A stretch of DNA of 46,402 nt from Hellea sp. (GTDB lineage: Bacteria > Pseudomonadota > Alphaproteobacteria > Caulobacterales > Maricaulaceae). Location of the stretch: NCBI GenBank assembly GCA_013002305.1, contig JABDKG010000078.1:1-46402 (forward strand), written 5' to 3'. Positions 17,025-44,659 of the stretch are shown piece by piece (the first letter of the stretch is position 1; each line of letters starts with the position of its first letter). The notes beneath the pieces were generated by a model. That model made no database searches, was not told the DNA's origin, and saw nothing but the letters and a program-made list of their open reading frames with translations. The position numbers were made by a program, and so were the translations under genes.

Positions 17025-18293
17025 GTGTTAATCCGCAACGCCGAAGTTGACGGACAGATCATGGATGTCCGGACCAATGGTAAAATCATCACCGAGATTG
17101 CGCCGCACCTCGAAGGAGTTGCCGACATAGACGGAAAAGGCGGCGCGCTTCTGCCCGGTCTTCACGATCATCACATCCACCTCAACGCGACGGCAGCGGC
17201 GATGAATTCGATGCGCTGCGGGCCGCCGGAAGTGATGACCGAAGATGATTTGATCAAGGCGCTCGATCAGCCAGGTGAAGGCTTCCTGCGCGGCGTAGGA
17301 TACCACCATAGCGTGGCCGGCGAGATCAACCGCGACTGGCTCGATGCCAATGGCCCGGATCGGCCGGTGCGGATACAACACCGCAGCGGACGGCTGTGGA
17401 TTCTCAACAGCCGCGCGATGGATGAGCTCGGCATTAAAGAGCCCAAAGACGGGCGGCTTTATGACAGTGATCATATTATTCGCCGCAGCGGTTTTCCCGA
17501 TTTAACGCCCCTGATCAAACGCCTGCGCAGCTATGGCATTGTGGGCGTGACCGAGGTGACGCCGTCCAATGGCATAGCCGAGTTTGAAAACTATCTCGAG
17601 CAGGCGGGTGATCTCAACCTGTCGATTATGGGCAAGGCGGAGCTAACCGGTGTGAGCCATCCAAGGCGAGGGCATCTCAAACTCCATTATCATGATCACG
17701 ACTTGCCAGCGCTGGCGGATTTGGCCCGTGTAATTGGCACGGCGCATGATGCGGGTCGTGCGATCGCAGCCCATTGTGTCACCCGCGCTGAGCTGATGAT
17801 GACGCTCGCGGCGATTGAGAAAGCAGGGCCGATCGATCGCGACCGGATTGAGCATGCGGCCATCGCCGATGAGGCCGCGATAGAGTGGATGCAGCGCCTC
17901 GGCGTCATCGTCGTGACCCAGCCTAATTTCATCGCCGAGCGGCGAGCAGCCTATCTCAAAGATGTGCCGGAGGCTGACCATCCCCATCTCTGGCGGCTCA
18001 AATCATTCTTGGGCGCCGGATTACCGCTCGCTGCCGGCAGCGACGCCCCCTTCGGCGACCCCAATCCCTGGGCCGCCATGGCCGCCGCCGTTAAACGGCC
18101 TAAGGGGTTTGAGGCGGAGTCAATCACGCCGGAAGAGGCACTGGCGCTTTATACGAAACCAGCGGAAGATGCAGGCGGTGAGCCGAGGAGAGTGGCGGTT
18201 GGAGAGCCTGCAGATTTGATATTGCTGGACCGGGGGTGGGACGAGGCGCGGAAGGATTTGGGTGAGGTTAAAATGGTTTCCTTCACCTCCTAA
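17025..18293 (+). CDS. amidohydrolase, YtcJ-like
   Basis: A 422-residue metal-dependent amidohydrolase. Metal-site candidates are the HDHHIHL motif near residue 47, a His in AAHCVTRAE, IEHAA, and the Asp in AAGSDAPFG. YtcJ-type members act on N-acyl or cyclic amide and lactone-like bonds, and the substrate here is unknown. The GTG start at 17025 is preceded at 4 nt by GGAGGG, which lies at the edge of a palindromic repeat. It follows the second CoA-transferase after a 277-bp repeat-filled gap, so whether it is co-transcribed is uncertain. It may open a lactone or lactam in the pathway. Confidence 0.87.
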   Translation: MLIRNAEVDGQIMDVRTNGKIITEIAPHLEGVADIDGKGGALLPGLHDHHIHLNATAAAMNSMRCGPPEVMTEDDLIKALDQPGEGFLRGVGYHHSVAGEINRDWLDANGPDRPVRIQHRSGRLWILNSRAMDELGIKEPKDGRLYDSDHIIRRSGFPDLTPLIKRLRSYGIVGVTEVTPSNGIAEFENYLEQAGDLNLSIMGKAELTGVSHPRRGHLKLHYHDHDLPALADLARVIGTAHDAGRAIAAHCVTRAELMMTLAAIEKAGPIDRDRIEHAAIADEAAIEWMQRLGVIVVTQPNFIAERRAAYLKDVPEADHPHLWRLKSFLGAGLPLAAGSDAPFGDPNPWAAMAAAVKRPKGFEAESITPEEALALYTKPAEDAGGEPRRVAVGEPADLILLDRGWDEARKDLGEVKMVSFTS

Positions 18294-18678
18294 ACCTCCG
18301 CTCATCCCGCCGTAGGGCGGGATCCACGCGATGTTTCAAGCAGGCGTCATATTGCTTTGGAAATGCCTCGGGGTCCGGTAAAGGCCAATATGGAACTCGG
18401 TGCAAATCTAGCCAAAGGGGATTGAATGCCTCAATCAGATTGAGTTTCCATTGCCGGTTCCAATTTTTTATTTGCCGCTCTCTTACAAATGCCTCATGCC
18501 GTGATCCGAATGGCTCAAACCAGACCAGATGTTTGAGACCGTATTTTTGCGAAAAACCTTCAAATTCGCCGTGAATGTGCTGTTCCATTCTATATCCAAT
18601 ATTATCCGTATGCCCCGTGTAGAGCGCGCCGAGTTTGTGATTGGTGATAATATAGGTCCAGAAGGTGAGAACAGTCAT
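18283..18678 (-). CDS. GIY-YIG nuclease domain protein 1
   Basis: A 131-residue single-domain GIY-YIG protein (UPF0213/YhbQ-like). The GIY...YIG pair reads YIITN...LYTG (9-22). R30 is the catalytic-Arg candidate, and the Glu lies in RERQIKNW (66-73). WKLNLIE follows. The last ~18 residues are read from the flanking palindromic repeat, so the ancestral protein probably ended near PLPDP. It lies between a forward repeat (18298-18330) and an inverted repeat (18692-18723), so it fills the spacer of a repeat pair. A homologue with the same placement is at 44254-44589. No ribosome site is obvious. Possible roles are mobility or maintenance of the repeats, or a general DNA-repair nuclease. Confidence 0.85.
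   Translation of the reverse strand: MTVLTFWTYIITNHKLGALYTGHTDNIGYRMEQHIHGEFEGFSQKYGLKHLVWFEPFGSRHEAFVRERQIKNWNRQWKLNLIEAFNPLWLDLHRVPYWPLPDPEAFPKQYDACLKHRVDPALRRDERRFRR
18298..18330 (+). repeat. palindromic repeat unit, forward, left flank of GIY-YIG gene 1
   Basis: CCGCTCATCCCGCCG, then TAGGG, then CGGGATCCACGCG. It encodes the last residues (VDPALRRDER) of the GIY-YIG reading frame on the other strand. Confidence 0.85.
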
Positions 18679-18691
18679 ATTGTAAAGCTAG

Positions 18692-18723
18692 GCGTGGGTC
18701 CCGCCCTGCGGCGGGATGAGCGG
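18692..18723 (-). repeat. palindromic repeat unit, inverted, right flank of GIY-YIG gene 1
   Basis: GCGTGGGTCCCGCCC, then TGC, then GGCGGGATGAGCGG. It is a near-exact reverse complement of 18298-18330. Confidence 0.85.
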
Positions 18724-18803
18724 AATTTAGATTTTTTAACATTATATCGAATTGGAACATATAGTGAACGTAAGCGGAATTTGGTGCCGGATCAATTAAA
18801 ACT

Positions 18804-18835
18804 TCGCTCACCCCGCTGGCGAGCGGGGCCCACGC
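18804..18835 (+). repeat. palindromic repeat unit, forward
   Basis: TCGCTCACCCCGCTGG, then CGAGCGGGGCCCACGC. An extra unit to the right of GIY-YIG gene 1. Between it and 18723 lies GGAACATATAGTGAAC, which resembles a palindrome upstream of GIY-YIG gene 2. Confidence 0.75.
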
Positions 18836-18839
18836 CCAT

Positions 18840-18959
18840 ATGTTCGATTTCTCTATTTCCAGTTTGCAGGTGCTCCCGCATGGGCGTGAATTCCAGCTGA
18901 CGTTTTACGAGTGGGTGGAATTAGCACATGAATTAGTCAGAGAAATTATAAAGACCTGA
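18840..18959 (+). pseudogene. possible 39-residue gene remnant
   Basis: From ATG 18840 the frame encodes a 39-residue protein-like sequence (MFDFSISSLQVLPHGREF, then QLTFYEWVELAHELVREI) ending at TGA 18957-18959. It begins directly after a palindromic repeat and has no ribosome site, so it may be the tail of a gene cut by repeat insertion. I do not recognise a family. Confidence 0.3.
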
Positions 18960-19355
18960 TGCTCGAGCAAATGGGGTGATTAATTTGAGTGAACTAGAGT
19001 TTTTGTACCAAATTATATAGGTATAATCCCATTCTTCAGAAATCATACATTCTAACTCTGGAATGATATAGCTAGAAAACTCGGAGCTCTCTTTATTCAT
19101 TGAGGTTTCGTAGTCGCTAAAGGTTTCAGATATAATTGTTGGAAATTCGATTGTTTGTGTTTCGAAATCTACCTTTCCGACTTTGTACTTTGAGGAAATG
19201 GCAAGAATCATGGTGTTGAATTTTGACCATTCCGCTTCCGATACTTCATCCAGTTTGTCGAGATTTTTCTTGCCCAACCATCCATCCCAAAGCGAAATGA
19301 ATTCCTTCTTGAATTCTGGTTGCGGTTCATTTTTGATAAAATAGTTTTTATACAT
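18933..19355 (-). CDS. hypothetical protein, AT-rich
   Basis: A 140-residue soluble protein with no family I recognise. It is rich in Glu, Ser, Lys and aromatic residues (KKEFISLWDGWLGKK, PELECMISEEWDYTYIIWY). Start ATG 19355 has GAGG seven bases upstream and overlaps the 3' end of the crotonase gene by 8 bp; an ATG at 19367 is possible. Its base composition is clearly AT-richer than the crotonase it is coupled to, which suggests a late arrival. It looks like an orphan cargo gene next to the palindromic-repeat cluster. Confidence 0.6.
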   Translation of the reverse strand: MYKNYFIKNEPQPEFKKEFISLWDGWLGKKNLDKLDEVSEAEWSKFNTMILAISSKYKVGKVDFETQTIEFPTIISETFSDYETSMNKESSEFSSYIIPELECMISEEWDYTYIIWYKNSSSLKLITPFARASGLYNFSD

Positions 19356-20319
19356 ATACGACCTCATCCACTAGACCCCAATCCATCGCTGTCTTAACCG
19401 AAACCTTTTCCATGCTCAGCGCCATGTAACCCGTCCTTTGCCGTCCGATGCGATGGCTGAGCGCGACGGTTCCTCCGGCCCCGGGGATTAATCCGTATTT
19501 CAGCTCCGGCAGTTGGAACCATGCTTTCTCAGACGCCGTCACTTGTTTCGCAAATCCGCAAATCTCTGCGCCGGCTCCAATGGCGGCGCCATTGACGTGG
19601 ATGTGGAGGCGGTCGGATAATTGCGCTAATCGCGTGGCAGGTAGTCTTATACTCCTAATCCAATGCGCGGTTGCCGGGTCGGTGACTTCTCCGAATTCCT
19701 GGATCGCGCCGCCAATGGAGAAGGTCTTGCCGTTTCCGGTAAGTTCAACGCGCTGGATGCCGTCATTGATCAGGGCCATGTCGAGGATTTCGCATAGGGC
19801 GTCGCGGACTTCGGTGCCGATGGCGTTGTAGTTCTTCGGGCGGTTGATGCGAATATGGAGCGTATCGCCATCAATATCGGAAATGATTGGCGGGCCGGGT
19901 TCAGCGATGAGCCTGCCGCCTTCGTATGATTTAAGCCAGGCCATAAACTCCGGGCCTTGCTGCACGGTTCCGTAGGCCAGACTTTCCATGGTCAGGGCCT
20001 TATCCATAGGCAGGCCTTCAATGGCGCGCAGGTGCTGCACCAGCGTCATAGCGGTGATGGGCGCGGCTTCGATATTATTTGTGATAATGTCCAGTTTTTT
20101 ATCGGTTTCGAGCACCACATCACAAGCGCTTGCGGCCAGCCCGTCGCCGATTCCGATGACCGGGCAGGGCAAACGGGAAAGCCAATTATTTAATGATCCG
20201 TTTGAACCGCTAAGATCAAACGCCAGAAACGGGTGATTGGTCTGAGGGCCGAAGGCCTCTAGCGGCAGGCATGATGCCTGTAAAGCGCCGGTTTCGGCAA
20301 ATGTGAGCGCGTTTTTCAT
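19348..20319 (-). CDS. enoyl-CoA hydratase/isomerase family protein, possibly permuted
   Basis: A 323-residue crotonase-superfamily protein. The C-terminal half is a recognisable crotonase core: IRINRPKNYNAIGTEV, FSIGGAIQEFG (oxyanion region), HVNGAAIGAGAEICGFA and LPELKYGLIPGAGGT. It ends right after WGLVDEVVYV, where ordinary crotonases continue for about 80 residues. Those tail features (APITAMTLVQHLRAI, ESLAYGTVQQGPEFMAWL) appear instead in the N-terminal half, which suggests a circular permutation. ATG 20319 is chosen as start; the frame is open to 20370 but that would cross operator site 3. It is divergent from tetR. It is presumed to hydrate or isomerise a CoA ester in the pathway. Confidence 0.8.
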   Translation of the reverse strand: MKNALTFAETGALQASCLPLEAFGPQTNHPFLAFDLSGSNGSLNNWLSRLPCPVIGIGDGLAASACDVVLETDKKLDIITNNIEAAPITAMTLVQHLRAIEGLPMDKALTMESLAYGTVQQGPEFMAWLKSYEGGRLIAEPGPPIISDIDGDTLHIRINRPKNYNAIGTEVRDALCEILDMALINDGIQRVELTGNGKTFSIGGAIQEFGEVTDPATAHWIRSIRLPATRLAQLSDRLHIHVNGAAIGAGAEICGFAKQVTASEKAWFQLPELKYGLIPGAGGTVALSHRIGRQRTGYMALSMEKVSVKTAMDWGLVDEVVYV

Positions 20320-20347
20320 TGACTTTGATCTTATCATAGATGAATAT
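20319..20347 (+). promoter_or_regulatory. candidate promoter of the tetR-P450 operon
   Basis: TTGACT (20319-20324), 17-bp gap, GAATAT (20342-20347). The -10 is weak but directly abuts CCGAAC of operator site 3, the same geometry as sites 1 and 2. Confidence 0.4.
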
Positions 20348-20365
20348 CCGAACAACGTTCGGAAA
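20345..20365. promoter_or_regulatory. TetR-type operator, site 3
   Basis: Half-sites TATCCGAAC and GTTCGGAAA around AAC. It lies between the divergent crotonase and tetR genes, 23 bp before the tetR start, which is where an autoregulatory TetR operator is expected. Confidence 0.8.
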
Positions 20366-20388
20366 GTCAAATTGAAAGGGTTTTTCGT

Positions 20389-21078
20389 TTGGAAGCAGAG
20401 CCAAAAACAGCCTCATATGGTCGCCCGCGTCTTCTCACCCATGAGGAGATATTAGGCGGCGCTGTCGAGCTCGGCCTTGAAAATGTCACGATGAAGAAGC
20501 TTTCAAGCCACCTTGGTGTGGGAACGGCGACGCTTTACCAATATTTTGACAGCCGCAAGGCGCTGATGCGCGCGGCCGCAGTTTACGCGCTCTCCGATGT
20601 GTCTCTTCCGGAAGACACAGGGCAGCATTGGTCCATGATGGCGCGCGATTATGTGCTCGGTCTGATGGATTTACTGGCCAATAATCCAACATATATAAAT
20701 TCCATGAGCCCGACCGATTTCGGCTTTGAAGTCCATTTTAAACTGGTCGAGCCGTTTTTGGCCGGGATGAATAAACGCGGTATCGCGCCCAAAGACGCGA
20801 TGCGCTTGTTCAATTCGATCGGCATTATCGCTTATGGCGGCGCGGTTGAGACGGTGCGGCAGCGCGAATTTGAGTTTCAGGACGAGACGATGGATGTCGT
20901 GGCGCGGCGGCAATTTGCGCGCCTCGACGTCAAGGAATTCCCGCACTTACGGGAGGCGCTCGACGAATTTACCCAAACGCCCGAACAAAAGGTCAGCGGT
21001 TTGATGCGGTCGGCGTTTAGCGCATTTGCCCGCTATGTCGGCATGGATGACGAGAAATTATTTGAAGAGGCAGCCTGA
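20389..21078 (+). CDS. TetR/AcrR-family transcriptional regulator
   Basis: A 229-residue TetR-family protein. The N-terminal DNA-binding domain has the helix-turn-helix MKKLSSHLGVGTATLYQYFD (35-54). The remaining 170 residues form the helical ligand domain, likely sensing a pathway intermediate such as an acyl-CoA or steroid. Start is TTG 20389 with GAAAGGG eight bases upstream; no ATG fits before the HTH. It overlaps the P450 gene by one base (TGATG). Operator site 3 lies immediately upstream and copies stand before two other transcription units, which makes this the candidate repressor of the regulon. Confidence 0.92.
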   Translation: MEAEPKTASYGRPRLLTHEEILGGAVELGLENVTMKKLSSHLGVGTATLYQYFDSRKALMRAAAVYALSDVSLPEDTGQHWSMMARDYVLGLMDLLANNPTYINSMSPTDFGFEVHFKLVEPFLAGMNKRGIAPKDAMRLFNSIGIIAYGGAVETVRQREFEFQDETMDVVARRQFARLDVKEFPHLREALDEFTQTPEQKVSGLMRSAFSAFARYVGMDDEKLFEEAA

Positions 21079-22475
21079 TGGTCGCAGCAATTGAAGCCAA
21101 TGACACAAAAAATATTCCGGACGTCAAAGGGATTCCTTTTGTCGGCAATACATTTGAGATGGGCAAAGATCCGGCGGCGTTTTTCGTGCGCTGTTACAAA
21201 GATTACGGGCCCGTCTACCGGGTCAATGTTTTTGGCCGGAAGCAATATGTTATCGCCGGCGCAGAAGCCGCGAAATTCATGTCGACAAAAGCCGGCCGGG
21301 AAGGGCTGCGCTCGAAGGAGTTTTGGGATGATTTCGTCAATCATTTCGGCGCGTCAAAAACCCTGACTCAGATTGACGGCGAAGATCATCGCCGGATGCG
21401 CGCGATAATGCGGGCGGGATTTTCCCGCGAAGCCGCAACAGGGCAATATCATAAAATCTCGCATTTTATTGATGAATCGATCGAGCGGGACTGGAAGCCC
21501 GGCGAAGAAACGCCGGTCCTCGAAGCGTTTCAATATATGATTGTTCAGGTCATTGGCGAGCTGATGAGCGGGGAAGCGCCGCTCGAATATGTCAAAGATA
21601 TTAGAACCAATATTTTGTTTCTTTTGCTGGTCTTAGTCGCGAGAGTTAAACCAAAATGGTATCTGAAAAGCCCGAAATTCAAGAAAGCCAGCAAGCGCGT
21701 TGACGAGCTTGGCCAGAAAACCGTCGACCGGTTTATGAAACATGCCGAAGACGGAACCTTACCGAAGAACCTGCTCGGCGATATTATGCGCGCTCACATT
21801 GATGATCCGGAATTTGTCCAGAAACGCGATCTCGCGGTTCTGCTGACGGGCCCCTATGTGGCGGGTCTGGATACGGTCGCCAATACGGTTTCCGGCGCGG
21901 TTTACGGCATTCTTAAAACACCGGGCGTGCTTGAAAAAGTTCAGGCGGAAGCCGACGCGCTCTACGCTAAAGGGACTGTCACATCGATGGATGTCCGTAA
22001 CCTTGATTACATTCAGGGCTGTATTAAAGAGTCGATGCGGATCTGGCCGGTGGCTGTTGGACAAATGCGCACGACCACTAAAGAGATCGAATTTGAGGGT
22101 TATAAAATTCCGGCCGAAGAAATGCTAATTATCGGAACGTCAGTGCCGCATTATCTCGAAGAAAACTTTCCAAATCCGCTGGCCTATGATCCAGAGCGCT
22201 ATAGCGATGAGCGCAAAGAACATATGGTTCCGGGCGCTTATTCGCCATTTGGGCGGGGCCCGCATACATGTCTGGGGCAAAACCTGGCAGAAGTCTTGAT
22301 GGGCATGCTGATCTCGCGGCTGTTCCACCGTCTCGATCTGGCGCTTGAGAGCCCGAATTACGAGCTTAAGACCAAATCATTCCCGACGCCCGGTCCAGCG
22401 ATGAGCTTTAAAGTCAAAGTCCTGGGCGAACGCAACCCCGCACAGGCGCTAACCCCTGAAGTTTTAGAAGATTAA
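21078..22475 (+). CDS. cytochrome P450
   Basis: A 465-residue P450 monooxygenase. Motifs: I-helix VAGLDTVANT, K-helix ESMR in CIKESMRIWP, and the heme loop SPFGRGPHTCLG with C398 as iron ligand. Length and opening (GIPFVGNTFEMGKDPAAFF) resemble sterol- and isoprenoid-type P450s more than the 400-residue soluble camphor type, but no family number can be assigned by eye. It is coupled to tetR by a one-base overlap and followed 16 bp later by the Rieske oxygenase. The [2Fe-2S] ferredoxin at 9041 is the probable electron donor. Inferred role: hydroxylation of a polycyclic or terpenoid substrate. Confidence 0.95.
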   Translation: MVAAIEANDTKNIPDVKGIPFVGNTFEMGKDPAAFFVRCYKDYGPVYRVNVFGRKQYVIAGAEAAKFMSTKAGREGLRSKEFWDDFVNHFGASKTLTQIDGEDHRRMRAIMRAGFSREAATGQYHKISHFIDESIERDWKPGEETPVLEAFQYMIVQVIGELMSGEAPLEYVKDIRTNILFLLLVLVARVKPKWYLKSPKFKKASKRVDELGQKTVDRFMKHAEDGTLPKNLLGDIMRAHIDDPEFVQKRDLAVLLTGPYVAGLDTVANTVSGAVYGILKTPGVLEKVQAEADALYAKGTVTSMDVRNLDYIQGCIKESMRIWPVAVGQMRTTTKEIEFEGYKIPAEEMLIIGTSVPHYLEENFPNPLAYDPERYSDERKEHMVPGAYSPFGRGPHTCLGQNLAEVLMGMLISRLFHRLDLALESPNYELKTKSFPTPGPAMSFKVKVLGERNPAQALTPEVLED

Positions 22476-22490
22476 GAGCAGGAGATAATC

Positions 22491-23513
22491 ATGAACGCAC
22501 AAGTCGATAAAGACCATATCCAAACCGGCGAGGAGCTGGAACGTTGCCCATTCCCGATACCTTATGGCTGGTATTGCGTACACTTCTCGCACGAAATTGC
22601 ACCGGGCGAGATTAAAATTGAAAAAGTATTCGGCAAGGAATGGGTCCTGTTTCGGGGCGAAAACGGCGCCGTTGGCATGACAGATCCCTATTGTCCGCAC
22701 CTCGGGGCTCACCTCGGCCATGGCGGTACGGTTCAGGGCGATAATATTCGCTGCCCGTTTCACCATTGGCAATTTAACACTGAGGGCTGGTGTAAAGAAA
22801 TACCCTACGGCAAGGTTATGCCCGGGATTTGCAAGAAAAAGCCTGTCCTCAAAGCTCTGCCCGTTGTTGAAAAATACGGCGCGATCTGGGCCTGGTATCA
22901 TCCTGAGGGGGAAGAGCCGAAATGGGAAATTCCGGCCTATGATGAATTTGAAAATCCCGATGATCATGTTGAGACTAAATTCCATTGCTGGGATATCGGG
23001 ACCTGTATTCAGGAAATGGGCGAAAATTCAGTCGATACCCCGCACCTCAAGTTCCTGCACGGCGCGCCGATTATCCCGGACGTTGAAGCGAAAGCCGAAG
23101 GCCATATTTGGCACTATGATATTATGGATGGCTATATTGTCGGGGCCTCGCAAGGGCCGGGCCTGGCGCCGAACTGGCACTCCAAAGGTGACGTCAAAAT
23201 GCTGATGTTTGCCATGCCGACGCCCGTGGATGAGGAAATGTCGCGGGTCCGCATGATGTTTAGCTGGAAAAAATATCCGGAAGGATCAGAGGAGGCGGCG
23301 ACAGCCCATCACCTCTATTTGCACTCGATAGGCGACGCAGAAGGTGAAGAATCCGCCGGGTTTGAATCTGTTGATCTGATTGTCTGGGATAATAAGAAAT
23401 ATCGTCCAAAGCCGCTACTGTGTGACGGCGATGGCCCGATCCTGAAATGGCGCAAATATTTCCGTCAGTTCTATGTTGGTCTGGACGAAAATGATCCAAC
23501 GATAGCGATGTAA
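22491..23513 (+). CDS. Rieske non-heme iron oxygenase (KshA/DAF-36-like)
   Basis: A 340-residue Rieske oxygenase alpha subunit. The Rieske cluster is C68-P-H70 with C88-P-F-H91. The mononuclear iron site reads ENSVD182TPH185LKFLH190, matching D-x2-H-x4-H. No beta subunit gene is present, as in the single-component-terminal KshA, cholesterol 7-desaturase (DAF-36/Neverland) and related enzymes. That family relation, with the neighbouring P450, suggests attack on a steroid-like ring. A reductase is missing from the window. The ATG at 22491 has AGGAG a few bases upstream. Confidence 0.93.
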   Translation: MNAQVDKDHIQTGEELERCPFPIPYGWYCVHFSHEIAPGEIKIEKVFGKEWVLFRGENGAVGMTDPYCPHLGAHLGHGGTVQGDNIRCPFHHWQFNTEGWCKEIPYGKVMPGICKKKPVLKALPVVEKYGAIWAWYHPEGEEPKWEIPAYDEFENPDDHVETKFHCWDIGTCIQEMGENSVDTPHLKFLHGAPIIPDVEAKAEGHIWHYDIMDGYIVGASQGPGLAPNWHSKGDVKMLMFAMPTPVDEEMSRVRMMFSWKKYPEGSEEAATAHHLYLHSIGDAEGEESAGFESVDLIVWDNKKYRPKPLLCDGDGPILKWRKYFRQFYVGLDENDPTIAM

Positions 23514-23515
23514 TT

Positions 23516-24304: not shown

Positions 24305-24342
24305 CGCGATAATCCGGCCTTAGAAATTCAGGGGAGAAAAAA

Positions 24343-25239: not shown

Positions 25240-25271
25240 GGCCACTGATCCCAGCGACTTGGTAGCGAGCG

Positions 25272-25844: not shown

Positions 25845-25931
25845 ATGGGGATTGTTATATTTCAAAATCACAACTCTTCTTATAATTTGAAGAGCGTATT
25901 AATTCCCGATAATTAGGTGTTCAATACTAAA

Positions 25932-30643: not shown

Positions 30644-30650
30644 ACTCCCG

Positions 30651-33033: not shown

Positions 33034-33118
33034 TATAATTTGCGTAGAAAAGAAAGCGTTCTGATACGCATAATAGCTATATTGGGCGGTTGAATAGCGG
33101 TTTTGCGTAGTATATGAC
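33034..33118. promoter_or_regulatory. candidate Lrp-type binding region 2 (TonB receptor/ligase)
   Basis: Three copies: TTTGCGTAGAAAAG (33040-33053), TGATACGCATAAT (33062-33074) and TTTTGCGTAGTATATG (33101-33116), in a divergent promoter region. The intervals are about 22 and 39 bp. Confidence 0.55.
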
Positions 33119-33139
33119 TAAAAAAAATACGATTGTTAC

Positions 33140-36416: not shown

Positions 36417-36427
36417 AGGGAACCATT

Positions 36428-38356: not shown

Positions 38357-38452
38357 AAGCTAAAATCCAGTAACTTGGCTTGCCACTCCGCGCGAGCCAG
38401 TTCGGCCCGGCAATTTAAAACGATAAAAGAAAAATTGATTACGAGAACGCCT

Positions 38453-38597
38453 TTTATGCGATTAAGCAATTATCGACGACCATCGCGATGCATGGTCGAT
38501 AAAAATACGCATTTCAAAGGTTTTTAGGGCTGACAATTGCCGTTCTGCGTAGTAAAGAGGGGTGAAAATTACGCACTTTATGATCCGAGGGGGATCA
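38453..38597 (+). promoter_or_regulatory. candidate Lrp-type binding region 3 and hairpin before the lrp pair
   Basis: Copies: TTTTATGCGATTAAG (38453), AAAATACGCATTTC (38502), TTCTGCGTAGTAAAG (38543) and AAATTACGCACTTTATG (38566), followed by a small palindrome TGATCC-GAGGG-GGATCA (38581-38597). The 280-bp gap after DUF3604 protein 2 holds no gene. The layout fits autoregulation. Confidence 0.5.
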
Positions 38598-38636
38598 CGA
38601 CGCGTCGTTTGGGTGAAATGAAAGTTGGGGCAATCC

Positions 38637-39101
38637 ATGTCTGATACCGAGTTTGAGTTTTCTGATCTTGATCTGAAAATCATCGATATTCTGAAAAAAG
38701 ATGGCCGGACCAGCAATCATAATATTGCGGATATGACGGGTGTGACAACCAATGTCATCGCCACGCGTATTCGCCGGATGGAGAAAGCCAAGGCAATGAA
38801 AATTGTCGCTGTGTCCGACTTTGCGACCTATAATTTTGATGTGCTGCTCCCGATCGGTGTCGATGTGAAAGGCCGCCGCGCCAATGACGTTGCAGAAGAC
38901 CTCGCCAAGCTTGACGAAGTTGCCAGTGTGCAGCTTGTCGCCGGAAAACATGACATTGAAATTCTGGTGACCTTGCCCGGGCTCGAGCAGATGGGCAGCT
39001 TCCTGATGGAAAAACTTTCGAAAGTGAAAGGCGTGCGCAATCTCGATGCCGCGATCGCCGTCGATATTATCAAATTCGACTTTGACGTGGCGCCAATCTG
39101 A
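38637..39101 (+). CDS. Lrp/AsnC-family regulator 1
   Basis: A 154-residue Lrp/AsnC regulator. The HTH domain begins SDLDLKIIDILKKDGR and includes NHNIADMTGVTTNVIATRI. The RAM/ligand domain has LLPIGVDVKG and VQLVAGKHDIEILV. The ATG at 38637 is chosen; an upstream TTG (38625) adds only four residues. Its stop and the next start overlap by one base (TGATG). Lrp proteins bind degenerate sites cooperatively, often sensing amino acids or other small acids. Site region 3 is directly upstream. Confidence 0.92.
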   Translation: MSDTEFEFSDLDLKIIDILKKDGRTSNHNIADMTGVTTNVIATRIRRMEKAKAMKIVAVSDFATYNFDVLLPIGVDVKGRRANDVAEDLAKLDEVASVQLVAGKHDIEILVTLPGLEQMGSFLMEKLSKVKGVRNLDAAIAVDIIKFDFDVAPI

Positions 39102-39568
39102 TGACTGAATACAGAATTGACGACCTTGATCAGCAGATCATAGAGCTACTATCAACCGATGCGCGGCTCTCTAACCGGAAGATCGCCAGCGAACTTGGTT
39201 TTACAGAGGGCACGATCCGCTCGCGGGTAAAAAGGCTGGAAGAAGAAAACTTCATTCGTTTCACTGCGGTCACCAACATGTCCCATTTGGATAGGCCGCA
39301 GCTTGCCTATATCGGTATTCATGCTGAACAGGCACAGATTAGGAGCCTCGCCAAGGCGGTTGCGAAAATTCCCGAGATTAACGGCGTCATCATTTTGCTG
39401 GGCCGGTTTGATATATTGGCAATTGGTCTGTTTGAAGGCCTGACTGAAGTCCACCGTGTCGCAAGTAATCAAATTCTTGATCTACCGGGCGTTCGCCATG
39501 TCGAAACGACCGTCGCCGTCGACGTAGTCAAATATAATAATAGGCTGGCAAAAATTATTGTCGGCTGA
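39101..39568 (+). CDS. Lrp/AsnC-family regulator 2
   Basis: A 155-residue Lrp/AsnC regulator: HTH DDLDQQIIELLSTDARLSNR and KIASELGFTEGTIRSRVKR, then the RAM domain with AYIGIHAEQ and ILLGRFDILAIG. It is clearly diverged from regulator 1 (different helix-3 residues), so the pair is not a recent duplicate. The tight coupling suggests equimolar synthesis and possibly hetero-oligomers. Its stop abuts the stop of the convergent flavoprotein gene with no gap, so no terminator fits between them. Confidence 0.92.
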   Translation: MTEYRIDDLDQQIIELLSTDARLSNRKIASELGFTEGTIRSRVKRLEEENFIRFTAVTNMSHLDRPQLAYIGIHAEQAQIRSLAKAVAKIPEINGVIILLGRFDILAIGLFEGLTEVHRVASNQILDLPGVRHVETTVAVDVVKYNNRLAKIIVG

Positions 39569-41260
39569 TTACTTGCCCATGGATCGCGCCGCCCGGCGGC
39601 CGGAATAAATTCCGTCTGCGATCGATAATCCGCTGAGATAATTCCACGAGGCGATCCCGATAGCGTTGCGCCCGGCGGCATAGAGGCCCTTTACGGGTTT
39701 GCCTTTTTCATTAAGAACGCTGCCGGTTTTTTCATCCACCTTCAAGCCTCCGAGCGTTAAAGCCGGGCAGGGAAACAGCTTGGCAGAAAGCCCAATATTA
39801 ATCGCGATATAAGGCGGGCTGCCGATCCGGGCGATGTCATCCGTGGTTTTGTGGTGGGGATCTGAGCCATCTTCACCATGAGTGTTATATTTCGTAATTT
39901 GCGCTTCCAGCACGTCAGCAGGAACTTTTATTTTCTCTGCTAACGCTTTGATTGTCTTTCCCTTTTTTGTGCCAAAACGGGCGTTAAGCTGTGCCAGTTG
40001 TCGCTGGAAATCGAGCGCCTTGTCGCCGCTGACATCTTCAAGCGCTTGTTTAAGCAAGGGTTTGTCGAGGATTAACCAAGCTTCGCCGTCCTGGTTTTCG
40101 ACCATCTCCACACCCAGTGTCGCGCCGTAGACCATTTCATTGATAAAACGCTCGCCTTTCTGATTAACGATCAGACCTTTGGCAAAGGATAGCGGCGGAT
40201 TGATAAAGCGCCACGCGGTCATTCTGTCCATATTCCCGATCGCGCCGCCGGCGGTTTGGCCGAGACGGATACCGGAGCCATTATCGCCGTCGGTTCCAAG
40301 CGGATAAGCGCGCATATATTTAGGCGCATAATGGCCCAGCATTTTCGAGTTAAACACGAAGCCGCCGGAGGAGAGCAGCACACCCTTTTTGGCGCGAATA
40401 TATATCGACTTGCGACCTTCTTCGAGCTTTGAGGCTTTCTTCAGCATTTTGATCGCGCGCTTCAGAATGAATTTTGATCCCGGAATAATCGGCGGGAACT
40501 TCATCATCAAATTATGCGCTTTGTTACGCAGCTTGATATAATTTTCTTTTTGCTCCGGATCATCAAATTGCAGAACGTGCAGCCCGATAACCTTGCACTT
40601 ACTGTCGAGCACAATTTGTCGGGCTTCGCTATAATCCATAAACGTCATGCCGTTTGCGACTGCGCTTGCTTTCAGAGGGTGGTAAAATGCCCCGCCCAGA
40701 TTAGTCGCCTTTTTGCTTTGTTCGAAAGGGGCATAGCCCCGATGTCCGCGTGCGGCCGGTTTGGCTTTGGCTTTATAGTTGGGGATCAACGTATTGTCCG
40801 AATGATAAAGAAAATAGGTTGGGCCCGGGAAAGAGGTCTTATGCGGCCACAAGGTCGGGCGCATATCGACATTATGGCCGATCATCCAATCAATGGTGTC
40901 GGCGCTGCGATCACAAAAATCCTTCAGACAGGCGTCGGAAACAATATCGCCGACTTCCAATTTGAGGTAGTTGAACATGTTTTTGGGCGTGTCTTTGACG
41001 CCGGCTTCTTTCTGGATCTGGGTTCCGCCGCCGGCATAGATTACTCCGCCGCTGGCTTTGGTCGCGCCGCCGCCTTCAAACTTATCGACCGCGATCACCG
41101 AGCTTCCAAGCTCGAGTGATTGCAAGGCGCACGCCACGCCGGCGCCGCCAAGCCCGACGACCAGAACATCGGTCTCGTGGTCCCAATCTATGTCAGCAAT
41201 TTTGTCGACTTTAATTGCGGCTTCGACGAAAGAATGCCAGTTTTTATCTTGAGGGGTCAT
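39569..41260 (-). CDS. FAD-dependent dehydrogenase, KstD/fumarate-reductase-like
   Basis: A 563-residue flavoprotein of the fumarate reductase/3-ketosteroid-delta-1-dehydrogenase group. The FAD motif VLVVGLGGAGVACALQSLE (33-51) is followed by GGGATKASGGVIYAGGGTQ, a segment typical of KstD-like enzymes. A late ALTLGGLKVDEKTG and GLYAAGRNAIG follow. By eye it could dehydrogenate a ketosteroid ring or reduce an alkene; the substrate is not readable. It is divergent from the SDR gene, with TACGCA-type motifs between them. It is convergent with lrp2. Confidence 0.88.
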   Translation of the reverse strand: MTPQDKNWHSFVEAAIKVDKIADIDWDHETDVLVVGLGGAGVACALQSLELGSSVIAVDKFEGGGATKASGGVIYAGGGTQIQKEAGVKDTPKNMFNYLKLEVGDIVSDACLKDFCDRSADTIDWMIGHNVDMRPTLWPHKTSFPGPTYFLYHSDNTLIPNYKAKAKPAARGHRGYAPFEQSKKATNLGGAFYHPLKASAVANGMTFMDYSEARQIVLDSKCKVIGLHVLQFDDPEQKENYIKLRNKAHNLMMKFPPIIPGSKFILKRAIKMLKKASKLEEGRKSIYIRAKKGVLLSSGGFVFNSKMLGHYAPKYMRAYPLGTDGDNGSGIRLGQTAGGAIGNMDRMTAWRFINPPLSFAKGLIVNQKGERFINEMVYGATLGVEMVENQDGEAWLILDKPLLKQALEDVSGDKALDFQRQLAQLNARFGTKKGKTIKALAEKIKVPADVLEAQITKYNTHGEDGSDPHHKTTDDIARIGSPPYIAINIGLSAKLFPCPALTLGGLKVDEKTGSVLNEKGKPVKGLYAAGRNAIGIASWNYLSGLSIADGIYSGRRAARSMGK

Positions 41261-41285
41261 ATCGCAATTCGTTGTGATTAGAGCG

Positions 41286-41362
41286 TTTTACTACGCAGTT
41301 TGATAGTTTCTGCTCCAAAATTGCACAAAATACGTAGAAAATCCAAGAAAATATTGCGCACT
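41286..41362. promoter_or_regulatory. candidate Lrp-type binding region 4 (flavoprotein/SDR)
   Basis: Copies: TTTTACTACGCAGTTTG (41286-41302), AAAATACGTAGAAAAT (41327-41342) and ATATTGCGCACTT (41351-41363). It is the same motif as regions 1-3 in a divergent promoter region of 144 bp. Confidence 0.55.
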
Positions 41363-41404
41363 TCGGTAAATTTGTTAGACAAAAAGAAAACGGCGGAGGA
41401 ATGA

Positions 41405-42277
41405 ATGGCAGAGCCAAAAATTGCACTTGTAACAGGCGCCAGTCGCGGCGCGGGAAAGGGTATCGCGCTCGGCCTCGCAGAAAAAGGCATGACGGTCTAT
41501 GTCACGGGCCGGACCAAAACTGTTGGCACGGATAAAGGCTGGCACGGCACCGTATTGCCGGGTTCTGTTGCCGAGACCGCGCAGCTCTGCACGGAAGCCG
41601 GCGGCAAGGGTATTGCTGTAATATGTGACAGCGCCGATGATGCTGCGGTCGCCAAATTGTTTGAACAAATTATGGAAGAGCAGGGACGGCTCGATATTCT
41701 GGTCAACAATGCCACCTACATTCATCATCAATTGATTGAGCCCAAACCGTTTTGGGAAAAGGAACTGGCTGCGCAGAAAATACTCGATGTCGGGTTGCGC
41801 TCTGCTTATGTCGCGAGTTGGCATGCGGCCAAGATCATGGCCAAACAAAAATCCGGACTGATTGCCTTTGGCTCCTCCTTTGGCGGAACGTGCTATATGC
41901 ACGGCGCGGCTTATGGCGCGCAAAAGGCTGGCGTAGATAAATTCGCCCATGATATGTCAGTCGATCTGGAGGACTATAATGTTCAGGCGGTGTCGATCTG
42001 GATGGGCCCGCTTAAAACCGAGCGCGCCTCAGAGGCCGCCGAAGTGCATCCTGAGCAATATGAAGAGCTAATGAAAGTGGCCGAGCGGCCGCAATTTACC
42101 GGCCATATTATCCATGCCATCGCCTCTGACCCGAAAGCTCAGGAACTTTCCGGTAAGGTTCACATCGGCGCGGAGATTGCCAAACGTTACGGCCTTACCG
42201 ACGAGGGCCGTGAGCCTCCGTCCTACCGCGAAATGCTCGGTGATCCTCCGAGCTTTAATCCGGCCAAAGTCTATTAG
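41405..42277 (+). CDS. short-chain dehydrogenase (DHRS1-like)
   Basis: A 290-residue SDR. Cofactor loop TGASRGAGKGIALGL, NNATY, a Ser pair in FGSSFGG, and the catalytic YGAQKAG. The long C-terminal part (PSYREMLGDPPSF) is as in DHRS1-type SDRs. Start ATG 41405 has GGCGGAGGA directly upstream; an overlapping ATG at 41401 is out of frame. It is presumably an alcohol/ketone step of the second pathway. The next lipoprotein gene overlaps its 3' end. Confidence 0.92.
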   Translation: MAEPKIALVTGASRGAGKGIALGLAEKGMTVYVTGRTKTVGTDKGWHGTVLPGSVAETAQLCTEAGGKGIAVICDSADDAAVAKLFEQIMEEQGRLDILVNNATYIHHQLIEPKPFWEKELAAQKILDVGLRSAYVASWHAAKIMAKQKSGLIAFGSSFGGTCYMHGAAYGAQKAGVDKFAHDMSVDLEDYNVQAVSIWMGPLKTERASEAAEVHPEQYEELMKVAERPQFTGHIIHAIASDPKAQELSGKVHIGAEIAKRYGLTDEGREPPSYREMLGDPPSFNPAKVY

Positions 42278-43427
42278 AGTTATCGCCAAATATCTGGCGT
42301 TTGCGGCGGCCGCGCTGGCCTTATCCGGCTGTAAGCAAGGCGTTGACGCCTGGAATGAAGCGCCGGTCGATCACAACAAAGCTAAATATGAAAAGCTGCC
42401 GCTTCCGGCATTTCCGGACTATCCCGCGCCTCAAATGCAGCTCAGCGCTGGCGATAGCGGCGTAATCTATTTTTCGACCAAAAGCCCTTATGATTTTAGC
42501 CGCGTCTTGCACGGCTATGACACTGCACCTGACACGACAGGCAAGGGGACTTTGGTCCTTCCGGACGGGGCGAGCCCGGATAGTCCGGTTCCGGCGATGG
42601 TTATTTTGCACGGCTCCGGCGGTATCGCTGACGGCCGCGAATTTACATATGCTGAGCTATTTGCCGATAACGGCATTGCCAGCTTTGTTGTCGATTATTA
42701 TGCGCCGCGCGGCGTCACCGAAGAAACGCCCTATGTCATGAAAACCATGGCCACGACCGAGGTCGATATCATTGCCGACGCCTATAGCGCGCTTAAAATA
42801 ATCGGAACCCATCCGGCGATTGATGCCAGCCGCATCGGCGTCACAGGATATTCCTATGGCGGCATGGCAACCCGCTACGCGCTGGATATCAGAATCAAGG
42901 AGATCATGGCGCCTGATATCCCGCCCTTTGCGCTGCACATGGATTTATACGGACCTTGCCACCAAGATACCGGGTCATGGCGGACAACCGGCGCGCCTTA
43001 TTTGGCGATTTACGGAGATGCCGATAACTCCGTCGATCCGGAGACGTGTTCGGATGTGCAGGATTTCCTCGGCGTTGGCGGAAGCGAGGTCGAATCCCAC
43101 ATCATTGCCGGGGCCGGCCATGCCTGGGAAAATTCGGCACCCAAAGGCAAATTTGGACAGGCCTATATTCGCGGCTGCGAATTCTCATGGCATCCGGAAA
43201 CCGGTATCTTTATGGTCAACGGCAAATCCGGTGAGTTCCAACCCGAACCTGATATGACCCGCGAAGAGCGCGCCTTTGTCCGAAGTAAACTCGGCAGTCT
43301 CGCCGGCGGCTGCATCGGCATGGGCTACACAGCCGGCAATGACCCGGCGGCAGATGCTGAGAGTAAGGCCTGGCAGCTCGACTTTATGAAACGGCATTTT
43401 AATTTGAGTATTACCGATAAACAATAA
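42240..43427 (+). CDS. dienelactone-hydrolase-like alpha/beta hydrolase, lipoprotein
   Basis: A 395-residue hydrolase. A signal peptide with lipobox LALSGC (..AKYLAFAAAALALSGC) precedes the alpha/beta-hydrolase domain: VILHGSGG, the nucleophile loop GYSYGGM, the acid in YGDADNS and the His in GAGHAWE. GTG 42240 gives a 31-residue lipoprotein signal and overlaps the SDR by 38 bp. The frame is open to ATG 42114, but that extension lies inside the SDR gene and is not protein-like. No good ribosome site is visible, so translational coupling is likely. It probably hydrolyses an ester or lactone in the periplasm. Confidence 0.82.
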   Translation: MILRALIRPKSIRVIAKYLAFAAAALALSGCKQGVDAWNEAPVDHNKAKYEKLPLPAFPDYPAPQMQLSAGDSGVIYFSTKSPYDFSRVLHGYDTAPDTTGKGTLVLPDGASPDSPVPAMVILHGSGGIADGREFTYAELFADNGIASFVVDYYAPRGVTEETPYVMKTMATTEVDIIADAYSALKIIGTHPAIDASRIGVTGYSYGGMATRYALDIRIKEIMAPDIPPFALHMDLYGPCHQDTGSWRTTGAPYLAIYGDADNSVDPETCSDVQDFLGVGGSEVESHIIAGAGHAWENSAPKGKFGQAYIRGCEFSWHPETGIFMVNGKSGEFQPEPDMTREERAFVRSKLGSLAGGCIGMGYTAGNDPAADAESKAWQLDFMKRHFNLSITDKQ

Positions 43428-43486
43428 AACATTTGCGTTAATCAATAATTGTTCCTATGCTCCTCCCATATTCAGGGGAGATAGAC

Positions 43487-44191
43487 ATGACGGAGTCCGT
43501 AACGTTTAACATCGACAAGACCGCGCGAGCCGCCGGATGGGCGCTCCTAGGGAGTATTGTCGTCGGAATTCTGGGCGCAGTTTTCGTTGCCAAAGATATT
43601 GATATCAATATGAGCGCCGACATAGTCGGAACCGCAGAAGCCATGCTTGACGCGGAGACGCGCCTTATGGCCAAAGCCTATCTCGGATTGCTGACTTTCG
43701 CGTTGGCGCTTCTGACCTCAATTGGGCTCTATTTGATCCTTAAAACCCGGGGTCAATTGCTCGCCGCGTGGAGCCTGCTGGTTGCCCTTGGCGGAGCGGT
43801 TTTGGTTCTTCTCGGGTCGGTTTACGCCATGAACGCTGCGCAAATTGGCGGCAATGAAGCCTTTGAAACTTTGGCCAGCGCAGAACAGCGCCATCTATTA
43901 GCCGGTTTGCAGACAACGTCGGATTACACATCATTCCATCTGGGTCTAGTTTTATCATCTTCCGGCAATGCCGGGTTTTTCTATCTGTTCCTGAAGTCCG
44001 GTCTGATCCCGAAAATTATCGCCGGTTGGGGGTTATTCGCATCGCTATTCGTTGCCGTGATGATTGTGGCCCGGGACTTCATTCCGGCGCTCGGGCATAA
44101 TGGAATCACGGCGACGTTCATGGTGTCTAACCTGATCGCGATACTGGCAACGGGATTTTACCTAGCGATTAAAGGCGTGCGGACGGGTTAA
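43487..44191 (+). CDS. DUF4386 membrane protein
   Basis: A 234-residue integral membrane protein with about six hydrophobic segments (WALLGSIVVGILGAVFVA; LGLLTFALALLTSIGLYLIL; LVALGGAVLVLLGSVYA; GLVLSSSGNAGFFYLFL; GWGLFASLFVAVMIVA; SNLIAILATGFYLAI). This layout and the SAD..GTAEAM and FHLGL segments match DUF4386 proteins, which have no known function. Start ATG 43487 has GGGGAG upstream. It is 59 bp after the hydrolase, so it may share its transcript. I see no link to catalysis. Confidence 0.82.
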   Translation: MTESVTFNIDKTARAAGWALLGSIVVGILGAVFVAKDIDINMSADIVGTAEAMLDAETRLMAKAYLGLLTFALALLTSIGLYLILKTRGQLLAAWSLLVALGGAVLVLLGSVYAMNAAQIGGNEAFETLASAEQRHLLAGLQTTSDYTSFHLGLVLSSSGNAGFFYLFLKSGLIPKIIAGWGLFASLFVAVMIVARDFIPALGHNGITATFMVSNLIAILATGFYLAIKGVRTG

Positions 44192-44253
44192 TTTGAAGGG
44201 TATTTCCCAAACTAAAAGCCTGTCATCCCGGAAATGCTCGAGCATCGAATCAG

Positions 44254-44589
44254 CTACCGAGAAATGACTGCGTGCAAAATATCTAGATGACAAGGTTCCG
44301 GGAGCGGCCAACAAGGCAAAATTGAAATATCTAGCCAATCTGGATTGTCCATTTCAATAAGATTTAATTTCCAATCCCGCCGCCAGTTTTTAATTTGGCG
44401 TTCGCGCGTGAGTGCGGTTTCTCTTGTTTCATGTTTTTCAAACCACACAAGTCGATGACAATTATATTTAGCGGAAAACCCTCTAAACGTTTTTTGTTGA
44501 TGCTGAATCATCCGTTTAGCGAGATCGTCGGTTTGACCCGTGTAGAGTGTCCCATTGCGTTTGTTGGTGACAATGTAGACATAGAACAT
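44254..44589 (-). CDS. GIY-YIG nuclease domain protein 2
   Basis: A 111-residue GIY-YIG protein homologous to 18283-18678: YIVTN...LYTG, an Arg (AKRM), and RERQIKNWRRDWKLNLIE with the Glu. It lacks the repeat-encoded tail of copy 1. It lies between a degenerate forward-type sequence (TGTCATCCCGG near 44221) and an inverted palindromic unit (44630-44659), again the spacer position of a repeat pair. A palindrome GAACATATAATGTTC (44596-44610) stands 7-21 bp upstream and could be an operator. No strong ribosome site is visible. Confidence 0.85.
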   Translation of the reverse strand: MFYVYIVTNKRNGTLYTGQTDDLAKRMIQHQQKTFRGFSAKYNCHRLVWFEKHETRETALTRERQIKNWRRDWKLNLIEMDNPDWLDISILPCWPLPEPCHLDILHAVISR

Positions 44590-44629
44590 ATAGCGAACAT
44601 ATAATGTTCCTGACGGAAAATCAAGCTAA

Positions 44630-44659
44630 CTGGATCCCGACTTTCGTCGGGACGTACGG
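44630..44659 (-). repeat. palindromic repeat unit, inverted, upstream of GIY-YIG gene 2
   Basis: CTGGATCCCGAC, then TTTC, then GTCGGGACGTACGG. The stem pairs perfectly, and the outer end is diverged from the GAGCGG consensus. Confidence 0.75.

Follow-up and report, generated by a model that had tools for sequence, protein, structure and literature searches.

Small GIY-YIG nuclease genes framed by polar hairpin repeats: a probable dedicated enzyme for a REP-like repeat family

The window, by which is meant the whole stretch of 46,402 nucleotides analysed here (Hellea sp., assembly GCA_013002305.1, contig JABDKG010000078.1), contains two small GIY-YIG genes and 17 copies of a hairpin repeat unit, as found with R1, a covariance model of the unit built on 18 units of the window genome. 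These features are listed below, with the R1 score of each unit in bits.

4128 to 4174, plus strand: facing pair A, left unit (26.9 bits)
4221 to 4253, minus strand: facing pair A, right unit (46.4 bits)
4946 to 4978, plus strand: single unit (47.0 bits)
5316 to 5348, plus strand: facing pair B, left unit (48.1 bits)
5383 to 5415, minus strand: facing pair B, right unit (42.6 bits)
7030 to 7062, plus strand: facing pair C, left unit (51.7 bits)
7097 to 7129, minus strand: facing pair C, right unit (49.7 bits)
13932 to 13964, plus strand: facing pair D, left unit (48.1 bits)
13993 to 14025, minus strand: facing pair D, right unit (51.5 bits)
16766 to 16798, plus strand: single diverged unit (27.4 bits)
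16900 to 16932, plus strand: facing pair E, left unit (44.0 bits)
16985 to 17017, minus strand: facing pair E, right unit (37.2 bits)
18283 to 18678, minus strand: GIY-YIG gene 1 (P0001, 131 aa; Pfam PF01541, E=1.1e-12), conserved family core at 18403-18663
18297 to 18329, plus strand: unit 3' of gene 1 and facing it, overlapping the end of the ORF (50.6 bits)
18692 to 18724, minus strand: unit 5' of gene 1 and facing it (48.8 bits)
18803 to 18835, plus strand: further unit beyond gene 1 (39.4 bits)
44221 to 44231, plus strand: 3' of gene 2, what may be the stump of a lost unit, TGTCATCCCGG (seen by eye; not found by R1)
44254 to 44589, minus strand: GIY-YIG gene 2 (P0002, 111 aa; Pfam PF01541, E=2.5e-18), conserved family core at 44326-44586
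44628 to 44660, minus strand: unit at the 5' side of gene 2 (41.4 bits)
44748 to 44780, plus strand: unit farther out, 5' of gene 2 (29.4 bits)

The preliminary description had placed both GIY-YIG genes inside facing pairs of repeats. Gene 1 is indeed enclosed in this manner, between the units at 18297-18329 (+) and 18692-18724 (-), but gene 2, whose intact units all lie 5' of it, is flanked and not enclosed; a better second enclosed copy is found outside the window, on contig C86, where the core of a third gene (420-680) lies between units at 317-349 (+) and 723-755 (-). A fourth small GIY-YIG gene (C40) is accompanied by two units, both 3' of the gene. All four small GIY-YIG genes of the genome adjoin a repeat, which uvrC does not, and the chance of finding a unit within 400 bp is approximately 0.034 per gene, or 1.4e-6 for four out of four. 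It had also been correctly recognized that the repeat encodes the C-terminus of gene 1, whose last residues are repeat-coded because its ORF passes through the unit at 18297-18329; since gene 2 ends without a repeat, this arrangement looks incidental, and was dropped as a meaningful feature.

The motif CCGCTCA occurs 22 times in the window, versus 7.66 occurrences expected, a count that was reached in none of 100 shuffles. As represented by R1 (18 units), the repeat consists of an 8-bp stem and a 4-base loop, with pairing in 96.5% of 144 cells versus 77.2% in shuffles, and with a covariation score that none of 500 shuffles reached. Across the 2.94-Mb genome the model detects at least 87 units at E<0.05, including the 17 of the window; this number is a floor, because only 150 of 1245 first-look candidates were scored. 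Sixty-four of those 87 form 32 facing pairs with their CCGCTCA ends outward, against 5 neighbour pairs of the opposite arrangement and 2 on the same strand, counted within 150 bp, and the spacers of the facing pairs (28-90 bp in all) fall in 31 of 32 cases within the 28-62 bp first reported. The initial impression of about twenty units, mostly in facing pairs, therefore stands with respect to pairing but not to number, while the TCCACG ending ascribed to the units is only part of the picture: among 14 aligned window units, CCACG closes 6 and CCAG another 6, the last 2 having neither ending, and the tail of the window unit is (T/C)CCA. Where polarity was scored, 293 cases were head-tail, 9 head-head (2 judged genuine) and 2 tail-tail (none judged genuine).

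Judged by its sole Pfam match, PF01541, each of the two window proteins is a member of the GIY-YIG superfamily, and neither matches an HUH tyrosine transposase of the IS200/IS605 type. Residues Y5, Y16, R26, H30, E63 and N82 are invariant across 21 proteins. The GIY-YIG active site is composed of Tyr, Tyr, Arg, His, Glu and Asn, with roles as in I-TevI and UvrC, and the active-site residues of other GIY-YIG enzymes are in place in this family. The only solved relatives of P0002 found by sequence at E<=0.1 are the UPF0213 GIY-YIG proteins (PDB 1zg2 and 1ywl), to which its likeness is weak (E=0.0029 and 0.064), and no match was found in phages at E<=1e-8.

The association of gene and repeat extends well beyond this genome. 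Oriented units lie within 350 bp of 32 of 61 same-family genes in 61 related genomes and of 71 of 80 named relatives from several phyla, as compared with none of 18 lower-scoring small GIY-YIG genes (one of which, L051, is a decayed family copy and not a representative of another subfamily) and none of 15 uvrC genes, all 15 with confirmed UvrC Pfam domains; the background density (71 units over 746 kb) amounts to 0.07 per gene. Units are found on both sides of the gene in 57 of the 80 named relatives, in which the nearest pair is oriented tails-in in 45 cases and heads-in in 7. When perfect stems of >=8 bp were counted without any repeat model, their density was 2.96/kb near the genes versus 0.25/kb far from them, and 3.30/kb versus 0.46/kb in a second comparison. 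The remaining 29 of the 61 family genes in related genomes have no oriented unit within 350 bp, and some of these are accompanied by other hairpins. The proposed check for enrichment of homologues next to repeats thus came out strongly positive among relatives and across phyla, often with the gene between facing repeats, and with zero counts in both GIY-YIG controls. Around the gene stand polar hairpin units with their tails mostly towards it, the other units are dispersed, mostly as facing pairs, and, as in a REPtron, the enzyme gene is flanked by inverted REPs of the family that it supposedly mobilises.

Gene subtype and hairpin flavour match in cis and, with exceptions, in trans. The F1 flavour has a stem and loop of 8/4 and the F2 flavour of 9/5. 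Protein distance and edit distance between units in cis are correlated over 103 loci (Mantel r=0.556; best of 2000 permutations, 0.202), as they are in 19 within-genome pairs (Spearman 0.77); since a cis correlation is expected for anything co-inherited, these correlations indicate linkage and not recognition. In the trans test, for which gene-adjacent units were removed, kinship was ignored, cut-offs were set after the scores had been seen and the search patterns did not demand pairing, dispersed F1 units were found in 12 of 17 genomes with an S1 gene versus 8 of 44 without (p=1.9e-4, kinship ignored), and dispersed F2 units in 9 of 11 genomes with S2 versus 9 of 50 without (p=1.1e-4, likewise; 8 of 11 versus 8 of 50, p=4.6e-4, after removal of two non-hairpin single hits in G018 and G046). 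The crossed tests gave p=0.11 for S1-F2 and p=1 for S2-F1; when at least 3 dispersed units were demanded, the matched values weakened to 0.0028 and 0.0046, with 0.076 for S1-F2. Among the exceptions, G050 has no family match at E<=1e-15 yet displays 27 pattern hits (14 F1 and 13 F2), G001 has no S1 gene yet 32 F1 hits, and G031 has no gene over the S2 cut yet 39 F2 hits.

Gene and units are also gained or lost together, as one head-to-head cassette. Some genomes of a Brevundimonas-like genus carry a head-to-head unit-gene-unit cassette between dnaN and recF and others lack it; in 20 gene-less dnaN-recF sites R1 detects no unit at all, and cassette-only matches elsewhere (8 among the matches listed) all start within 5 bp of a unit head. 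In the Sphingobium plasmids TYG64 and TYG74 the gene-less site carries a single composite double-headed palindrome, where filled relatives carry unit-gene-unit. The empty sites could be deletions, and neither a target-site duplication nor a dated insertion was established at the cassette sites. For the window genes themselves, 10 genomes of their own genus yielded no clean empty site. Orthologues of the amidohydrolase to the left of gene 1 occur in G007 and G001 at 78% identity, and G001 also has an orthologue, at 64%, of the DUF4386 gene to the left of gene 2; the 1 kb downstream of these three contains no GIY-YIG gene, which, with the far side either no longer syntenic or outside the comparison, says only that the window gene positions are not conserved. 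For Rhizobium plasmids, the matches listed include no clean empty site. The dnaN-recF gap of the same Brevundimonas-like genus holds other palindromic inserts as well, and is therefore a permissive site.

In the gonococcus, a homologue with 54% identity to family member L068 lies in a dRS3-like array of 11 exact ATTCCC-N8-GGGAAT repeats spread over 6.3 kb, and R1, built from units of the window genome, detects the gonococcal repeats. This homologue may be the published Ssn, one of a group reportedly of site-specific single-stranded nucleases associated with NTS repeats in Neisseria; the Ssn family is reported to carry out sequence-specific cleavage of single-stranded DNA only. Ssn and the window family share a small GIY-YIG protein, which in the Neisseria member sits among many-copy repeats; unlike the Ssn/NTS system, the window repeats display a CCGCTCA head and facing pairs, one of them around a gene, and single-strand cutting by the window protein is only putative. 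The window nuclease is probably dedicated to hairpin REPs and probably of the Ssn family. A literature search found no published link of GIY-YIG genes to REPs or of Ssn to them, but its coverage stopped short of the Ssn paper, so that it provides no evidence of novelty.

The excerpted text of a 2013 survey (PMC3733652) states that the CGTC-tagged REP superfamily, which includes dRS3 of Neisseria, is not associated with transposase genes and "apparently lack a dedicated transposase"; for every family its Table 1 lists a stem of 8-9 bp, a loop of 4-5 bases and a tail of 3 bp, and HH dimers are said to predominate. The window units are similar in being short palindromes, tagged at one end by unpaired bases, and in the predominance of dimers, and their dimensions match (8-bp stem, 4-base loop, (T/C)CCA tail), although their tag reads GCTC instead of CGTC; many relatives carry CGTCA-hairpin-TCCA where window units read GCTCA. 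In setting the 32 facing pairs beside the HH dimers of that survey, it should be noted that its 'head' end may differ from the naming used here. Apart from the letters of the tag, the repeats fit the CGTC-tagged REP superfamily, for which the excerpted text names no dedicated gene; the GIY-YIG gene is the probable partner of units of the window type. The parallel with REPs and RAYTs drawn in the preliminary description, with a different enzyme class, is therefore apt: as excerpted, the literature on RAYT/GTAG REPs (REPtrons, PMC3733652; REPINs, PMC3116915) likewise describes a nuclease gene framed by inverted REPs, and dispersed paired REPs that are likely non-autonomous derivatives (PMC3733652), but the RAYT is an HUH tyrosine transposase, while the window enzyme is a GIY-YIG protein, with another tag and no known joining activity.

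On balance, we favour the reading that hairpin units and small GIY-YIG gene make up a single system, a REP/REPIN-like family with its own dedicated nuclease. Because gene type and hairpin type go together, the nuclease is likely the dedicated enzyme of a large repeat family left unpaired by the 2013 survey. The protein would recognise hairpins of its own flavour, most likely as they fold in single-stranded DNA (the lagging-strand template, incoming transformation DNA or transcription bubbles), and would cut at or beside them; the cassette would represent the autonomous copy, and gene-less facing pairs its non-autonomous derivatives. Since GIY-YIG enzymes cut by hydrolysis and, to our knowledge, do not rejoin ends, spread would proceed via cutting followed by host repair or recombination. 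As for the early suggestion that the nuclease may mobilise or maintain the repeats, gene and units are gained or lost together and gene type predicts dispersed type, but units also occur without a detected gene, as in G050; from sequence, mobilisation is plausible but unproven. The question is directly testable, because there is now a concrete candidate gene with flavour-matched partners, which some sister genomes carry at defined sites and others lack. A broader proposition, put forward tentatively, is that CGTC/dRS3 hairpins constitute a second superfamily of REPIN-like selfish elements in many phyla, whose autonomous form would be a head-to-head cassette with a GIY-YIG single-strand nuclease, and which would multiply as hairpins are cut and the host repairs the break, and not by an HUH transposase, with each subtype serving its own flavour. 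The present data connect REPs, dRS3 and small GIY-YIG proteins as one system, from which candidate pairs of nuclease and hairpin could be catalogued for cutting single strands at specific sequences.

The alternative that survives best, which we nevertheless regard as unlikely, is that the enzyme is a site-specific single-strand nuclease without mobility (Ssn), cutting the repeats to tune DNA uptake or recombination, with the repeats as host-serving sites among which the gene arose or was copied. The Neisseria homologue within its dRS3-like array, the reported Ssn/NTS work, and the co-variation of gene type and flavour would all agree with this, but the facing-pair frame and the joint gain or loss of the gene and both units look like a selfish cassette, and the 64 genome units in close facing pairs have no gene between them. 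Homing, in which the nuclease would act as free-standing homing endonucleases do, cutting unit-bearing or empty alleles into which homologous repair would then copy the cassette, is a mode for which GIY-YIG enzymes are the classic nucleases, but here it appears distinctly improbable: filled sites keep two complete hairpins and, were the hairpin the target, would still be open to cutting, the gene-less dnaN-recF sites contain no R1 unit, and the composite palindrome of the Sphingobium plasmids, which is suggestive only, would also be left by deletion between two units. That insertion-tolerant intergenic spots passively gather both repeats and small genes is very improbable, even with so permissive a gap as dnaN-recF, given the matching of flavours in cis and in trans and the zero counts at lower-scoring small GIY-YIG and uvrC genes; coincidence and a shared hotspot were rejected on these two controls. 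Least credible of all is that the hairpins serve the small gene as transcription terminators or as stabilisers of its RNA, a reading that their GC-rich character and position at gene ends might invite, but which was rejected on polarity counts, with units found on both sides in fixed polarity and in gene-less pairs as well.

Small genes of one GIY-YIG nuclease family are associated with a polar hairpin repeat, show a prevailing polarity of the units around them, match those units in flavour, and are gained or lost jointly with them. Two such genes lie in the window:

18283-18678, minus strand: GIY-YIG gene 1 (the copy at 18.4 kb)
44254-44589, minus strand: GIY-YIG gene 2 (the copy at 44.3 kb)

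The repeat unit is a hairpin with a (C/T)CCGCTC head, a stem of 8 bp, a loop of four bases and a tail usually reading CCAC or CCAG. In a gap-free alignment of 18 units (14 from the window and four from two other contigs of its genome), 96.5% of 144 stem cells were paired, and the stem covariation score was reached by none of 500 shuffles. The covariance model built from this alignment, R1, matched the window's genome at least 99 times at E<=10 (with 150 of 1245 candidates scored), and the matches at E<0.05, at least 87, were counted as genome units. Of these 87, 64 form 32 facing pairs, that is, two units on opposite strands with heads outward, separated by spacers of 28-90 bp. The units are strongly clustered, with few or none on most contigs: 17 fall in the window, which is 46.4 of 2937 kb (binomial P=4e-14), and 19 on contig C97, where a Pfam search of the genome found no PF01541 match. 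A large direct duplication within the window (5053-5541 and 6777-7255), consisting of blocks of 70-221 bp that are 86-91% identical and spaced 1714-1724 bp apart, includes facing pairs B and C.

The five PF01541 matches in this genome correspond to uvrC (a 627-residue frame, its identity confirmed) and four small genes, and R1 units are found close to all four of the latter. The preliminary description had placed both genes of the window inside facing pairs; that arrangement was found for gene 1 and for the gene on contig C86, while gene 2 has two units that both lie 5' of it and the gene on contig C40 has two that both lie 3'. The contig carrying uvrC, C95, has no R1 unit among the matches listed. 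As judged by eye, the C40 gene and its units stand between the two copies of an imperfect direct repeat, each about 37 bp long (about 1415-1450 and 1984-2020 of stretch L002), and the left copy follows the apparent tail of a lost unit; this repeat could be a duplication created on insertion.

For comparison, 61 genomes were searched with PF01541, and from the best matches listed 90 stretches of about 10 kb (shorter at contig ends) were chosen without regard to repeats, comprising every listed match from within the window's genus and some of the others. The two window proteins served as the start of a family HMM, whose 80 matches in these stretches and the window, less one 51-codon fragment, were divided into 61 high-scoring genes (score >=100, both window genes included) and 18 low-scoring genes, at a cut-off chosen after the scores were seen. 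R1 matches (E<=0.0075) lay within 400 bp of 29 of the 61 high-scoring genes vs none of the 18 low-scoring ones; four high-scoring genes, all positive, had contributed units to R1, so that the independent figure is 25 of 57. The background was 14 matches in 627 kb farther from these genes, and no match was found in 15 uvrC stretches (150 kb), all 15 of which contain UvrC domains. Perfect stems of at least 8 bp, scored with no repeat model, occurred at 2.96/kb beside high-scoring genes vs 0.25/kb farther away, and at 0.56 vs 0.27/kb for low-scoring genes; such a stem was nearby in 40/61 vs 5/18. At E<=1e-15, 17 of the 18 low-scoring genes were absent from both family-profile searches (for gene subtypes S1 and S2), and one of the 18, L051, is a decayed family copy.

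A scan of a 21-protein alignment against the genomes of 84,980 species yielded at least 572 relatives, the best 80 of which (the named set) derive from Alpha-, Beta-, Gamma- and Deltaproteobacteria, Nitrospirae, Nitrospinota, Aminicenantes, Elusimicrobia and candidate phyla; two of their loci, L130 and L172, are apparently on the same contigs as L095 and L108 of the first sample. Stems of at least 8 bp occurred at 3.30/kb near these genes vs 0.46/kb far from them, with one nearby in 58 of 80, and one flavour, GTCATTCCCGCGAAAGCGGGAATCCAG, is common to many of the loci. An oriented unit, defined after the stem scans of both sets as TC(A), hairpin, and CCA or CTA, was found within about 350 bp of 71/80 named, 32/61 high-scoring, 0/18 low-scoring and 0/15 uvrC genes, the uvrC stretches containing one, away from the uvrC genes. 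Units lay on both sides of 57 of the 80 named genes, the nearest pair being tails-in at 45 and heads-in at seven, and of 19 of the 61 high-scoring genes (11 and four, respectively). Unit ends were scored as head-tail in 293 cases, head-head in nine and tail-tail in two, of which two head-head and no tail-tail units were judged genuine. An MmeI-like restriction gene and the DISARM gene drmA flank a family member on a Planktothrix plasmid (L223); a hairpin scan of about 1 kb to the left of that member and 1.3 kb to its right found no CGTC-type unit.

Across 103 loci with a unit (32 high-scoring, 71 named), protein distance and unit edit distance were correlated (Mantel r=0.556; maximum of 2000 permutations, 0.202), indicating that gene and unit travel together; within genomes, Spearman's coefficient was 0.77 over 19 non-independent pairs, some of them near duplicates (three G020 genes, two G044 genes). 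Two flavours, F1 (GCTCA type) and F2 (GTCA with a longer stem), were sought in all 61 genomes as fixed patterns that did not demand pairing, and were found in 22 and 18, respectively; reversed control patterns gave no hit in any of the 61. Two profiles, with cut-offs chosen after scores were seen, placed S1 in 17 genomes and S2 in 11. F1 was present in 14/17 S1 genomes vs 8/44 others, and F2 in 9/11 S2 genomes vs 9/50. With gene-adjacent units removed (those of unfetched genes being taken from the listing in G033 and G035, and allowed for in G027), the figures were 12/17 vs 8/44 (p=1.9e-4) and 9/11 vs 9/50 (p=1.1e-4), p-values that ignore phylogeny; the crossed pairs gave p=0.11 (S1-F2) and p=1 (S2-F1). 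The single F2 hits in G018 and G046 are non-hairpins, without which F2 stands at 8/11 vs 8/50 (p=4.6e-4), and requiring at least three dispersed units gave p=0.0028 (F1) and 0.0046 (F2), with 0.076 and 0.48 for the crossed pairs. Exceptions were G001 (32 F1 hits, no S1 gene), G050 (14 F1 and 13 F2 hits, no family match), G031 (39 F2 hits, no gene above the S2 cut-off), and G038 and G042 (11 and 15 F1 hits, no gene above the S1 cut-off). Within the window's genus, four genomes with no family match or a broken one (G002, G005, G008 and G009, three of them only 75-90% complete) had neither F1 nor F2 hits; the G009 gene (contig C64, 19119-19355) has two in-frame stops.

A homologue in the gonococcus has 54% identity to family member L068 and sits among exact ATTCCC-N8-GGGAAT repeats, 11 of them in 6.3 kb, which we take to be the dRS3 form; R1, built from the window's genome only, detects these repeats (best E=1.3e-5). 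The nuclease may recognise the hairpin and cut, and units may spread by repair. A GIY-YIG family termed Ssn was reportedly shown in 2025 to consist of site-specific nucleases acting on single strands, whose target in Neisseria is a repeated sequence. If so, the activity of the enzyme and some of its link to repeats have been published before, and what is new here would be the probable assignment of the repeats to the CGTC-tagged REP superfamily (PMC3733652), the facing-pair frame, the matching of flavours in trans, and the gain and loss of the unit-gene-unit cassette.

Such gain and loss was followed in the genus to which G038 belongs; this is probably Brevundimonas, because a B. albigilva locus (L142) matches G038 closely. 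Positions 3300-4900 of L142, with four candidates scored per genome, matched at least 80 of the 81 genomes of that genus; the flanks are dnaN on the left (Pfam) and, on the right, a RecF/RecN/SMC-domain gene named recF because of its place beside dnaN. Among the matches listed, at least 16 genomes gave a single match spanning the left flank into the cassette. Intervals were read in 10 of these and L142, and in 20 others chosen for mostly short gaps, the remaining 45 genomes being left out. R1 found a facing pair around the gene at each of the 11 filled sites, and no unit at any of the 20 sites without the cassette, where the flanks were 41-163 bp apart in 18 and other inserts of 575 and 541 bp occurred in two; at one of the 20 (G067), a head remnant, TGAGCGG, and a right flank of the filled-site type were seen by eye. 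At least eight cassette-only matches elsewhere in these genomes all begin at query 634-639 (the left head starts at 639), and five of the eight end at 1032-1037 (the right head ends at 1032), which indicates that the unit of gain or loss runs from head to head. Sites without the cassette (L260-L277) often carry other palindromic inserts, such as GGCGAGT runs with inverted copies, and small palindromic elements in general seem to land in this gap.

On Sphingobium plasmids, three aligned filled records carry unit-gene-unit between fnrL and a response regulator, while of four unfilled records two have a single two-headed composite palindrome, a third has an unrelated hairpin, and the fourth has nothing comparable. 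The composite consists of the outer halves of both units joined; the simplest explanation is that a deletion between the units left it as a scar, and the reverse order of events is possible. Units with two heads are otherwise rare. The unannotated GIY-YIG copy on the Sphingobium TYG73 plasmid (L228) is missing one base that its relatives have, and is apparently decaying.
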